A DNA stretch of 64,000 nt from contig JADGPF010000078.1 in assembly GCA_017882585.1 (NCBI GenBank), positions 1-64,000 on the forward strand, given 5' to 3'. Under the pieces are notes generated by a model, which did no database searches, had not been told where the DNA came from, and saw only the letters and a program-made list of their open reading frames with translations. Shown piece by piece: positions 49,372 to 57,940 of this stretch (its first letter is position 1; the number at the start of each line of letters is the position of its first letter). A program made the translations under genes and the position numbers. Source of the stretch: Thermoleophilia bacterium (lineage in GTDB: Bacteria; Actinomycetota; Thermoleophilia; Miltoncostaeales; Miltoncostaeaceae).

Positions 49372-50093
49372 CGCTCACCCTTCGGGCCAACCGGCGCGAT
49401 CAGCGGGCGCGACGTCGCACGCCCGGGCCGTCGCGGAAACCGATGGGGAGTCGGGTCGACCTTGCGGAACGTCAGAATGCGGCGCCGTGCACCGGGAAAG
49501 GGGTCTACCCGGTGCGCAACCGGGGCGGCGAGGCCCACGAGCTCGGCGGCGGCGCTCGCCGACGCGTCGTCGGCCTGGGCCTCGGAGGTCCACAGCACGA
49601 GATGGCCGCCCAATGCCACGAGGGGCGCGGCCAATTCGATCGTCGGAACGACGGGCGCGACCGCTCGCGCGGTGACCGTGGTGTGCGTCTCGCGCTCGCG
49701 CACCGCGAACGACTCGGATCGATCAGCCACGACCCGAACGTTACGCAGATCAACGGACGCCCTGGTGAGCCATTCCGCCTTGCGGCGCTCGCTTTCCAGC
49801 AAGGTCACGGCGATGTCGGGACGCACCATTGCGATCACCAATCCCGGGAACCCCCCGCCACTACCGAGGTCCACCAGCGTCGGCCCGGCGAGCTCGGGGA
49901 CCGTCAGTCCGGCAAGCGAATCGGCAAGGTGCCGCTCGACGGCTTCGGCGACATCCTCGATCGCGGTCAGGTTCTGCGGCTCGTGCAAGACGCGGTCGAT
50001 CAGCGCGACCAGGTGGCCCGCCTGGTCGAGCGACACCTCCAGCCCCATCGACGATGCCAGGTCTGCGACCTGGCGCGCCGGCCCATGTTTCAC
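49368..50093 (-). CDS. rsmG: 16S rRNA (guanine(527)-N(7))-methyltransferase
   Basis: RVLHEPQNLTAIEDVAEAVERHLADSL; LVDLGSGGGFPGLVIAMVRPDIAVTLLESERRKAEWL. Confidence 0.96.
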   Translation of the reverse strand: MKHGPARQVADLASSMGLEVSLDQAGHLVALIDRVLHEPQNLTAIEDVAEAVERHLADSLAGLTVPELAGPTLVDLGSGGGFPGLVIAMVRPDIAVTLLESERRKAEWLTRASVDLRNVRVVADRSESFAVRERETHTTVTARAVAPVVPTIELAAPLVALGGHLVLWTSEAQADDASASAAAELVGLAAPVAHRVDPFPGARRRILTFRKVDPTPHRFPRRPGRATSRPLIAPVGPKGER

Positions 50094-50101
50094 GTGAAAC
50101 G
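50086..50101. promoter_or_regulatory. parS site TGTTTCACGTGAAACG
   Basis: 15/16 match to consensus TGTTTCACGTGAAACA; contains the rsmG GTG start. Confidence 0.95.
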
Positions 50102-52250: not shown

Positions 52251-52385
52251 TCAGGCCGAGATCCGCGCGCGGCCCTTTGCACGGCGGCGCTTCAGGATTG
52301 CCCGACCGGCACGAGTGCTCATGCGCTTACGAAAACCGTGGGTCTTCTTGCGCTTACGCTTGTTTGGCTGGTATGTGCGCTTCAC
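52251..52385 (-). CDS. rpmH: 50S ribosomal protein L34 (too short for the supplied ORF track)
   Basis: GTG start; [44 protein letters not shown]. Confidence 0.97.
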
Positions 52386-52499: not shown

Positions 52500-52636
52500 T
52501 TTTCCCCATGTGTGGAAAGGTCTGTGGAAAACCCCGAGAGTCCGGCCGCGAGACGGGATCGCGGATGGAACGATCGTTGTCGATGTGACATCCCGTAACG
52601 GTTTTTGCCGCTTGCACCCGTCGAACGTTTTCCACA
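52500..52636. promoter_or_regulatory. DnaA-box cluster, rpmH side
   Basis: TTTTCCCCA 52500-52508; TGTGGAAAG 52511-52519; TGTGGAAAA 52523-52531; TTTTCCACA 52628-52636. Confidence 0.75.
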
Positions 52637-52718
52637 GGGGATCCCAGGGGGTCCTATCGCGACCTGGCCCCGATTAGAGTTGCCGCGGTGGCCAGTGCCG
52701 CTGCTGTACCCGTCCAAT

Positions 52719-53441
52719 ATGAGCACACTCGCCTACTCACATCCCAGCCCCGCGATGTCATCTACGCGATGTGCGCGCCTCGCCGTCTACCACGAGCCGA
52801 CCGAGCCTCCGACGGTGGCGGAAATCGCCGGCGATGACCCGGGAACCCTGATCGAACGGCTGTTTGAGGCGGTTGCTCGCTGGGCTCGCCTGCCCATCGT
52901 GGCCATACGCGAGATCATCGAGAACCTCGTCCACGCGGACTTCCGGGATGCCCTGGTAAGCGTCCTGGCCAATGGGCACGTCGTACGCGTGTCCGACTCC
53001 GGCCCGGGGATCGACGACCCAGGCCAAGCGATGCAGCCCGGCTTCACGACCGCCGGCGCTGACGAGCGCTCGATCATCCGCGGGGTTGGCTGCGGCCTGC
53101 CCCTGGCGGCCAGCGTCATGGATGCCGAGGGCGGAACGATCGAGTTCGCGCGAAATCTCGCGGGCGGGACGGTCGTGACGCTGACGACCCCGAACCAGAC
53201 CATCGAGGATGACTCCGAGAACGCCGCGATGCCCGCCGAGGACGACCGACTCGTGATGGCGCTCTTATTGGAGATGGGGCCGTCGCTGCCCGAACATGTG
53301 GCGGCAGAACTTTCCTGGACCGTCGGACGCTGCGGACGCGAGTTGGTCGTCCTCGAGAGCCGCGGGCTCGTCTCGCGGGACAGCGACGGTCGTCGCTCCC
53401 TGACCCCGAACGGGTCGCGCTTGTTGTCAACGTTGTTCTAG
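52719..53441 (+). CDS. GHKL/HATPase_c ATP-binding protein with C-terminal winged-helix-like domain
   Basis: N box AIREIIENLVHADF; VRVSDSGPGIDD; GVGCGLPLAASVMDAEGG; C-terminal DRLVMALLLEMGPSLPEHVAAELSWTVGRCGRELVVLESRGLVSRDSDGRRSLTPNG; start uncertain (52695/52719/52755). Confidence 0.8.
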   Translation: MSTLAYSHPSPAMSSTRCARLAVYHEPTEPPTVAEIAGDDPGTLIERLFEAVARWARLPIVAIREIIENLVHADFRDALVSVLANGHVVRVSDSGPGIDDPGQAMQPGFTTAGADERSIIRGVGCGLPLAASVMDAEGGTIEFARNLAGGTVVTLTTPNQTIEDDSENAAMPAEDDRLVMALLLEMGPSLPEHVAAELSWTVGRCGRELVVLESRGLVSRDSDGRRSLTPNGSRLLSTLF

Positions 53442-53450
53442 GGTCGTCGC

Positions 53451-54833
53451 GTGAACGAAACGTCAATTACCCCACCCCCCGGCATCGATGTCGCGTCGGT
53501 GTGGACCGAAGTCTGTGACCGGCTCCAATCGACACTCAACCCGTCGACGTTCACGTTCGCATTCGGCCACGCCCAAGCGCTGGCGCTGAAGTCGGACGTA
53601 TTGACGATTGGCGTTGACACCGAATTCGCACGCAATTGGGTCCAGCAGCGATACATGACCCTGCTCAAAGACGCACTGTTCGAGGTGACTGGGTCGGATC
53701 TCGAAGTCGAGGTCATCATCGCTCCCTCGGACGACCAGCCCGCCCTGGAATCGCACACGGACGAGGCGACGGCGCGCGTTGAGATTCCTCGGCGTCATCA
53801 AGGACGGCTTCAGCCGCGCTTCACCTTCGACGCGTTCGTAACCGGACCGTCGAATCGCTTCGCCCATGCCGCGGCGCTCGCGGTGGCGGAGGCTCCGGCG
53901 CGCGCGTACAACCCGTTTTTCATCTATGGCGGTGTCGGCCTTGGCAAGACCCACCTCCTCCATGCGATCGGGCATTTCGTCGACAGCAACTACCCCGAGT
54001 TGGCGTACCTGTATGTCTCGGTTGAGACGTTCACCAATGAATTCATTAACGCCCTGCGTGACGGCAACATCCGCACGTTCAAGGACCGCTACCGCAGCGT
54101 CGACGTGCTGCTGATCGACGACATCCAGTCGCTGCAAGGGCGCGAGCAGACCCAGGAAGAGTTCTTCCACACCTTCAATGCGCTCCACGACAGCGGCAAA
54201 CAGATCGTGATCTGTTCCGATCGTCCCCCGAAAGCGATCGCAACACTCGAAGACCGCCTGCGCTCACGATTCGAGATGGGACTGATTACCGACATCCAGC
54301 CGCCCGACCTTGAGACCCGCATCGCCATCCTCCGCAAGCGCGTCCAGTACGACGCGTATCAAGTGCGCGACACCGAAGTGCTCTCGTTCATCGCATCCCG
54401 CGTGTCGACAAACGTGCGTGCGCTCGAAGGTGCGCTGACCCGCGTCATGGCGCATGCGTCGATTTCCGGGCGCCCGGTCAGCGTCGAGCTCGCTCAGGAG
54501 GTCCTCCAGGACCTTTATCCCCCCGACGACGGCATCGTCACGATCGAGAATATCCAGCGTGAGACCTGCCGCTACTTCGATATCGGGTTTGATGAGTTGA
54601 TCGGACACAAGCGGACCCGCCGCCTGGTCACCCCCCGTCAGGTTGCGATGTACCTCAGCCGCGAACTCACCGATGGGTCGCTCCCGAATATCGGCAAGGC
54701 GTTTGGGAACCGCGACCACACGACGGTGATGTACGCCGTCCAGAAGGTCGCCCAGCAGATGAGCGACGAGGGTGAGGTCTACTCGGCCGTGCACACCCTC
54801 ACCACCCGCCTCACCGGCACGCCGCGCCGCTGA
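53451..54833 (+). CDS. dnaA: Chromosomal replication initiator DnaA
   Basis: [45 protein letters not shown]; domain [43 protein letters not shown]. Confidence 0.99.
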
Positions 54834-55215
54834 CGCGCACAACGGGCTCCCACCCATCGGCGTGTGCTGCGCCGCTTCTCTGGCGAAGCGGATCTCGCCG
54901 CCCAACGACGACCTCGCACTGCTGCGCCCGTTGCCCTCTGGGGATGACTCGCCGACAACCTCTCAACGGGCTGCGCCCGCGTCCACAGAGTGCGCCGGCG
55001 CCGCGTCCCCTGCTGCCACACCGTGGAACCTGGGGAGCGCCCGACACCGTCCTGCACATCCCGCGCCGCCACCAAAACCCTCATGGTTATGGGCATTACG
55101 GACAGCCGTCCACATATCCACAGCGCCTATGGTTACTACGAGAATTCTTTCTTAGGTCTTCTTACTTCAACATCGTGGGCGACATATCTGGCCGCTGCCC
55201 GGTAGGGTCGTCGTC
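54834..55215. other. Putative oriC core between dnaA and dnaN, with AT-rich DUE candidate
   Basis: CCGTCCACA 55106-55114 and ATATCCACA 55114-55122 next to AT-rich GGTTACTACGAGAATTCTTTCTTAGGTCTTCTTACTTCAACATC. Confidence 0.7.
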
Positions 55216-56331: not shown

Positions 56332-57465
56332 GTGCCGGACGGTCGGCCGTGGCGGATTCGATCGCTTGCGATCAGCGATCTGCGCTGTTGGCGGCGTCTT
56401 GGACTCGAGTTGCCGGGTGGACTTACGGTGATCAACGGGCCTAACGGCGCAGGCAAGACCTCGATCATCGAGGCCATTGTCCTGGCGACACTCGGGGTCT
56501 CGCCCCGCACCGCGCAACTGGCCGAACTGGTCCGTACCGGCGCACCGGCGGTGCGGGTGGCTGGAGACTTCGACGATCCCGCGAATCCCGGCCTGCATGT
56601 CCGTCGGGAGATTGGCTACGCGGTGGGAATCGGGCGCCGCCTGTCTCTTGACGGCGCCGGTGTGCGCCAATTGATGCTGTGGCGTCGGCCCAGCGCCGTG
56701 CTGGTGTTCGTCCCGGAGGAGTTGCGGGCGGTGAAAGGGCCGCCGGCCGCACGTCGGCGGGGTGTTGATCGGCTTCTGGAGGCCACGACCCCCGGGTTTT
56801 CCGATGAATTGACCGGCTTTCAGGACGCGCTGAGCCAGCGCAATGCGCTGCTTCGTCGGGCGCGCTCGGGGGCTGTGGATGTCCGTACGGCGTTCCCCTG
56901 GGAGGCCCGCATGGCCGCCCATGGCGCGCGGGTCGCCCTCGCTCGCCGTACCGTGACGAGGGCCCTCGCGCCCCGATACGCCTACTGGCTCGACCGTCTG
57001 GGCGGCGGCCCCGACGGGACCTTGAGATGGGAACCGTCGCCGGCGAGCCTGACCGACGTCCCCGGCGATGCGCTGGAGGATCGGTTGCGCGAGCGGCTTG
57101 AGTCGCAGCGTGCGCGGGACCTGGCCGCTGGCCTGACGACCTCCGGGCCCCACCGCGACGATTTGTGGGTCGGGTCCGGTGACCGGGACCTGCGTCGCTT
57201 GGGGAGCCAGGGCGAGCAGCGGACGGCGGCCCTCGCAATGCTCTTGGCACATCGTGACCTGATGCGTGCCGCCGGTGGGGGGCCCATACTGCTGTTGGAC
57301 GACGTGCTCTCGGAACTCGACCCGGACCGGCGCGCGGCGCTGCTTGCCGCACTCGACGGTCAGGAGCAGGTTGTGCTGACGTCCGCGGACCCGGCGGCCT
57401 CGTTGGCCGGGACGTCACGGGAGGTCACGATCTTTCAGGTGCGCGACGGTGTCTGCACCCCGTAG
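56332..57465 (+). CDS. recF: DNA replication and repair protein RecF
   Basis: VINGPNGAGKTSIIEAI; TSGPHRDDLWV; SQGEQRTAALAMLLAHRD; LLLDDVLSELDPDRR. Confidence 0.97.
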   Translation: MPDGRPWRIRSLAISDLRCWRRLGLELPGGLTVINGPNGAGKTSIIEAIVLATLGVSPRTAQLAELVRTGAPAVRVAGDFDDPANPGLHVRREIGYAVGIGRRLSLDGAGVRQLMLWRRPSAVLVFVPEELRAVKGPPAARRRGVDRLLEATTPGFSDELTGFQDALSQRNALLRRARSGAVDVRTAFPWEARMAAHGARVALARRTVTRALAPRYAYWLDRLGGGPDGTLRWEPSPASLTDVPGDALEDRLRERLESQRARDLAAGLTTSGPHRDDLWVGSGDRDLRRLGSQGEQRTAALAMLLAHRDLMRAAGGGPILLLDDVLSELDPDRRAALLAALDGQEQVVLTSADPAASLAGTSREVTIFQVRDGVCTP

Positions 57466-57940
57466 GACACGCCGCCGTCGGGACGCGGCACCTGCGTCGC
57501 GGTTCCTGCCGAAATACGGCGTGGCGTCGGCGGCAGTCGGCAAGGTCGACCTCGCCGCCGCGTGGCGCGAACTTGGTCCACGCGGTGCGGGTGCGATTCC
57601 GATCCGCGTTTCACGCAACGGCGTCGTGACCATCGCGTGCGCCGACGCGATGCGCGCGCAGCAGATACTGTCCGACGCCGACGACCTTTGTGCCGAATTG
57701 GGACGCCTTGCAGGTATTTCTCTGACGCGACTGGACCCCGTCATCGCCGATCACGCCGTTGCGTTGCCCGAGTTTGACGCGCCCGCGCCGAAGATAATCT
57801 CGCCAGCCGCACAGAAGGCGGCCACCGAGGCGGCACAGGGGATGACCGAGGGGATCGAGGATCCGGCGTTACGCGACGCGATCGCGCGCGCGGCCGCCGG
57901 GGCGATCGCGCGCCGGTGGGACCAAACGCGTACCACATGA
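57449..57940 (+). CDS. DciA/DUF721 family protein (putative replicative helicase loader)
   Basis: DUF721-like AAWRELGPRGAGAIPIRVSRNGVVTIACADAMRAQQIL, located between recF and gyrB. Confidence 0.8.
   Translation: MSAPRRTRRRRDAAPASRFLPKYGVASAAVGKVDLAAAWRELGPRGAGAIPIRVSRNGVVTIACADAMRAQQILSDADDLCAELGRLAGISLTRLDPVIADHAVALPEFDAPAPKIISPAAQKAATEAAQGMTEGIEDPALRDAIARAAAGAIARRWDQTRTT

Follow-up and report, generated by a model that had tools for sequence, protein, structure and literature searches.

Few gene orders in bacteria are as well conserved as the rnpA-rpmH-dnaA-dnaN block, and the locus described here raises the question of what a protein encoded inside this block, immediately ahead of the gene for DnaA, the master switch of chromosome replication, could be doing there. 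In the window, which is the whole 64,000-nucleotide stretch of DNA that was analysed, this gene, called gene X below, is arranged with its neighbors as follows:

52251 to 52385, minus strand: rpmH, divergent from X
52719 to 53441, plus strand: gene X, encoding a 240-aa protein with a GHKL ATPase domain and a winged helix; first gene of the X-dnaA pair
53451 to 54833, plus strand: dnaA (Pfam Bac_DnaA, E = 2.3e-72; Bac_DnaA_C; DnaA_N)

The original prediction had placed a protein of about 240 aa between rpmH and dnaA, in the same direction as dnaA and ending 9 nt ahead of it. This arrangement was recovered: the reading frame stops at 53441, leaving 9 nt to the GTG codon of dnaA at 53451, and its likely start, the ATG at 52719, gives 240 aa on the strand that also carries dnaA. 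A longer reading frame beginning with TTG at 52605 (278 aa) is unlikely to mark the true start, because the alignment of relatives begins further in, about 20 residues before a conserved R-x-A-x-Y...EPP motif. The comparison of X with its nearest relative gave a dN of about 0.16 and a dS of about 1.9, the latter near saturation, which shows that the protein is under purifying selection.

The N-terminal part of X was predicted to be a GHKL ATPase, and the following elements were located in it:

52767 to 53192, plus strand: GHKL ATPase domain (residues 17-158; its two strands at the N-terminus are particular to the family; from Pfam and the AlphaFold model)
52908 to 52943, plus strand: N box REIIENLVHADF (residues 64-75), in which E65 and N69 take the positions of the E-x-x-x-N motif in MutL and GyrB
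52995 to 53009, plus strand: G1 box DSGPG (residues 93-97; D93, G95 and G97 in 74/74 sequences)
53079 to 53099, plus strand: G2 box RGVGCGL (residues 121-127; G122 and G126 in 74/74 sequences)

The data agreed with this assignment. Pfam HATPase_c matched residues 62-159 with E = 1.8e-9 and a score of 38 bits (cut-off 26) and was found in all 37 family members that were searched, while the N, G1 and G2 boxes lie within a HATPase_c fold according to Pfam, the AlphaFold model and Foldseek. N69 and H72, together with the five box residues listed above, were invariant among the 74 aligned sequences, and the putative catalytic residue E65 was kept in 73 of them. In the profile alignment E65 and N69 coincided with the E-x-x-x-N motif of MutL from E. 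coli (21 bits) and, weakly, with that of GyrB. The glutamate of this motif is the catalytic base in the MutL and GyrB ATPases. The domain probably binds ATP, and hydrolysis is also probable, because its N box is of the MutL and GyrB type. MutL and GyrB differ from X in possessing a transducer domain, which the protein of only 240 aa does not have.

The C-terminal part of the protein consists of two elements:

53193 to 53237, plus strand: linker between the ATPase domain and the winged helix, in which the pLDDT dips to 55
53238 to 53438, plus strand: C-terminal winged helix-turn-helix (residues 174-240; from the AlphaFold model and from Pfam models in relatives)

Structure prediction had been proposed as a check on both folds, and both were present in the model. 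AlphaFold, run with 37 relatives, returned a model with a pLDDT of 90.3 and a pTM of 0.68, in which a short loose linker joins the ATPase domain to a winged helix made of helices 174-186, 191-198 and 202-214 and a wing at 218-228. By Pfam the winged helix was weak in the window protein alone and clear in its relatives (TrmB, IclR and MarR models; best E = 4e-9), so that the originally suspected C-terminal winged helix is upheld by model and profiles together. R207, in the presumed recognition helix, was kept in 71 of 74 sequences. The linker is expanded and rich in glutamine and proline in Coriobacteriia and some Bacillota, which shows that the two halves of X are separate modules. A conserved C-terminal TLF was considered as a sliding-clamp motif and dropped, as its conservation is confined to the family of the window genome.

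The comparison with known families showed that X is composed of familiar folds, whose combination in a fixed place before dnaA seems not to have been described. No curated family covered the full length of X, all NCBIfam matches of the window protein being far below cut-off, and the open-access (PMC) literature yielded neither a description of any member nor experimental work on one. In sequence as well as in fold, including the Foldseek comparison, the ATPase domain was matched best by the catalytic domains of histidine kinases (KinB 3d36, EnvZ, CpxA). In contrast to these kinases, X has no sensor, DHp or phospho-accepting histidine region and carries a winged helix at its C-terminus; Pfam HisKA matched no member, and the model contains no helical hairpin before the ATPase domain, in keeping with the earlier statement that X is not a classical sensor kinase. 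The likeness to the COG2865-type regulators (AlbA_2, HATPase_c_4 and winged helix) that had also been put forward stood only as a resemblance. Like X, these proteins place a GHKL ATPase before a winged helix, which in X is seen in the AlphaFold model and in the Pfam matches of relatives, and 3lmm (Corynebacterium DIP2311), presumably a COG2865-like protein, was at ranks 2-3 of the Foldseek matches, aligned over both domains with a TM of about 0.5. However, HATPase_c_4 (PF13749) was matched by no member at E ≤ 0.01, and neither was AlbA_2 (PF04326), only about 55 residues preceding the ATPase core. We know of no tie between COG2865 genes and dnaA.

The coupling of X to dnaA, proposed from the window locus, was borne out in relatives. 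In 168 of 176 loci, a set in which some genomes are counted twice, dnaA was directly downstream of X, and in the other 8 the contig ended just after X. For four chromosomes in which the record ended right after X, dnaA was found at the start of the record. Such records, cut between X as the last gene and dnaA as the first, came from genomes G014, G025, G333 and G346 (loci L010, L020, L260, L261 and L263-L266), and the same placement at record ends was seen in L178 and L204. The two genes thus stand at opposite ends of the file in several complete chromosomes, a likely explanation for the pair having gone unnoticed. The distance from the X stop codon to the first in-frame dnaA start had a median of 15 nt and was within 30 nt in 94 of 138 cases, with 12 overlaps. 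Almost every genome had one copy of X, and a full-length relative away from dnaA was found in none of the genomes searched. Pairwise distances of X and DnaA were correlated (r = 0.66, a value reached in 0 of 500 permutations; r = 0.41 between groups). A mobile or phage origin of X was rejected, as the plasmid and phage records searched gave no match.

A synteny survey rejected a recent insertion, for which absence of X from close relatives would be expected. In the family of the window genome (f1), which appears to be Miltoncostaeaceae, rnpA and rpmH were upstream of every X, and dnaA came next wherever the contig continued (30/30 loci). The ten genomes of this family that lacked X had no dnaA above threshold either, except for one truncated dnaA at a contig end. 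Metagenome-assembled genomes labelled Bifidobacterium breve or Acidobacteria (L067, L075, L104, L069) carried X-dnaA loci of the Miltoncostaeaceae type, and these labels are probably wrong. Elsewhere in Thermoleophilia, X was present in families f2 and f4; in f2 rpmH is gone from the neighborhood, and X-dnaA-dnaN is kept. Families f3, f5, f7 and f8 had an empty rpmH-dnaA gap of 138-367 bp, and f6, also without X, had parA upstream of dnaA. This ParA/Soj-type ATPase gene was directly upstream of dnaA and divergent from it (L143, L145, L146), and one origin regulator may possibly have replaced another there. On the DnaA tree, from which the X-less lineages outside Thermoleophilia are absent, the presence of X required 3 changes, which fits three losses within Thermoleophilia.

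In a phylum-wide sample X was found in 158 of 397 genomes, nearly always as a single copy, and the X-dnaA pair occurred in about 140 genomes from several phyla. The lineages with X were part of Thermoleophilia, Rubrobacteria, Coriobacteriia, Bacillota-like genomes, a few Armatimonadota and, rarely, Chloroflexota-like genomes, and the X tree grouped largely by lineage. The counts were 11/12 genomes in the class of a Bacillota metagenome-assembled genome, 26/250 in the phylum of a Bacillota-labelled one, 5/201 in the phylum of an Armatimonadota one and 2/301 in the phylum of an Anaerolineales one, and 0/297 in the class of Paractinoplanes, where the search had no positive control. X was present in Eggerthella lenta (PMC3035228), Atopobium parvulum (PMC3035223) and Cryptobacterium curtum (PMC3035227), and these three genomes, together with the trees, are the basis for assigning families f24, f31 and f45 to Coriobacteriia.

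The DNA upstream of X was scanned for TTNTCCACA with at most one mismatch, and the sites found are listed here with the other noncoding elements of the locus:

52500 to 52508, plus strand: DnaA-box-like TTTTCCCCA, 1 mismatch
52511 to 52519, minus strand: DnaA-box-like CTTTCCACA, 1 mismatch
52523 to 52531, minus strand: DnaA-box-like TTTTCCACA
52628 to 52636, plus strand: DnaA-box-like TTTTCCACA; TCCACAGG is conserved in f1
52675 to 52680, plus strand: -10-like TAGAGT, a putative promoter element 38 nt before the X start codon, moderately conserved in f1
54834 to 55215, no strand: dnaA-dnaN gap, candidate oriC, with one DnaA-box-like site at 55114 and the GC-skew minimum nearby

The four sites in the 333-bp rpmH-X gap compare with 0.07 expected at the density of the window and with a mean of 0.13 and a maximum of 2 in shuffled sequences. 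The cluster noticed originally is thus well above chance, and the TAGAGT was found where it had been reported. Of 142 loci, 138 had at least three DnaA boxes upstream of X, and 134 had no box between X and dnaA. X thus stands between the DnaA-box region and dnaA, where the leading gene of an operon under DnaA control would be expected. The cumulative GC-skew minimum at about 54-58 kb of the window is consistent with an origin at dnaA. A search for 7-mers in 115 upstream regions with DnaA boxes masked found no operator common to the lineages; apart from -10-like A/T words and words rich in G/C, nothing exceeded shuffles, and none of these words recurred in the majority of lineages. In Rubrobacteraceae CTGCAAAA is conserved twice near the DnaA boxes upstream of X (L087, L088, L097, L196) and is a candidate operator seen in this family only. 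The dnaA-dnaN gap of Rubrobacteraceae (L086-L101) contains 17-19 DnaA-box-like sites, in addition to 3-4 upstream of X, and is likely oriC.

The recurrence of the X-dnaA pair in several phyla makes it probable that X serves DnaA or the origin as a dedicated regulator, a role read from genomic linkage. The original suggestion that X may regulate dnaA expression or initiation agrees with all the observations made here. A more specific form, to which we give an even chance, is that X rides on the dnaA transcript and uses an ATP-switched winged helix for autogenous control. From the spacing we infer that X and dnaA would share one transcript. The GHKL domain would bind and probably hydrolyze ATP, and nucleotide binding could switch the dimer state or domain arrangement of X, which in turn would control binding of the winged helix to its presumed target, the DnaA-box-rich region before the operon. 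The most likely outcome would be ATP-responsive autogenous control of X-dnaA transcription, set against the autoregulation that DnaA exerts through the boxes. Several points speak against this reading: the upstream regions revealed no operator common to the lineages, many lineages do without X (among them the Thermoleophilia families and the class of Paractinoplanes mentioned above), and a regulatory role does not follow from linkage in the genome by itself.

The main rival to operon autoregulation is a direct action on initiation: bound to oriC or to DnaA, X would serve as an ATP-gated clamp or adaptor, promoting or blocking DnaA assembly with little effect on transcription, in the part played by Soj, DnaD or SirA in Bacillus. 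It could draw on the ATPase-type GHKL N box joined to a winged helix, the production of X together with DnaA and the DnaA boxes in the adjoining DNA, but no DnaA-interaction motif or oriC binding site was identified, and we consider it rather unlikely. Still less credible is an unrelated housekeeping role for X, kept in place because the rnpA-rpmH-dnaA-dnaN block is seldom rearranged. The high conservation of this gene order would allow such hitch-hiking, but f2 has lost rpmH from the neighborhood and still keeps X beside dnaA, the spacing of X to dnaA is tight and at times overlapping, and a neutral passenger should have turned up away from dnaA in some genomes, where no full-length relative was found. 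Finally, it is very improbable that X works on a protein partner as a GHKL kinase or a switch of the anti-sigma type, linked to dnaA for timing: SpoIIAB and RsbW are small stand-alone GHKL proteins with a weak sequence match to X (TIGR01925, E = 2.5e-5; 1th8, E = 0.0017), but the TIGR01925 score was 24 bits against a cut-off of 135, X has a fused winged helix, and its constant neighbor is dnaA and not an anti-anti-sigma or sigma gene.

Detailed knowledge of DnaA regulation comes from few model organisms, and this regulation varies between phyla. The role proposed for X resembles that of Soj/ParA, Spo0J, YabA, SirA, DnaD, Hda, SeqA, MtrA and AdpA, some of which are encoded near origins; to our knowledge, none of these is a GHKL ATPase, and no known regulator of DnaA or initiation is fixed directly before dnaA across phyla. 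A single-copy gene that is fixed before dnaA over such a range and has predicted ATP-binding and DNA-binding halves stands out as a strong candidate for a general regulator, which could have been overlooked because E. coli, Bacillus, Streptomyces and Caulobacter appear to lack it. We propose, tentatively and with slightly less than even confidence, that X is the founding member of a new class of initiation control: a GHKL switch that is gated by ATP, binds DNA, is made from the dnaA operon and was inherited from an early ancestor of several Gram-positive-type phyla. Through such a switch the supply of DnaA or the firing of the origin would be coupled to cellular ATP. As X occurs in the cultured species E. 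lenta, A. parvulum and C. curtum, its role can be tested now.

The wider neighborhood of the window locus contained parB, parA, rsmG, jag, yidC, yidD and rnpA on one flank and dnaN, recF and a DciA-like reading frame on the other, the latter flank being assigned mostly by eye. The DciA-like frame (57449-57940, after recF) was recognized by eye and had no Pfam match at E ≤ 0.001. A parS-like site, TGTTTCACGTGAAACG, at 50086-50101 of the window overlaps the rsmG start, and in the genome taken as Eggerthella lenta a parS site is located in the interval from X to dnaA (L214, 1261-1274).
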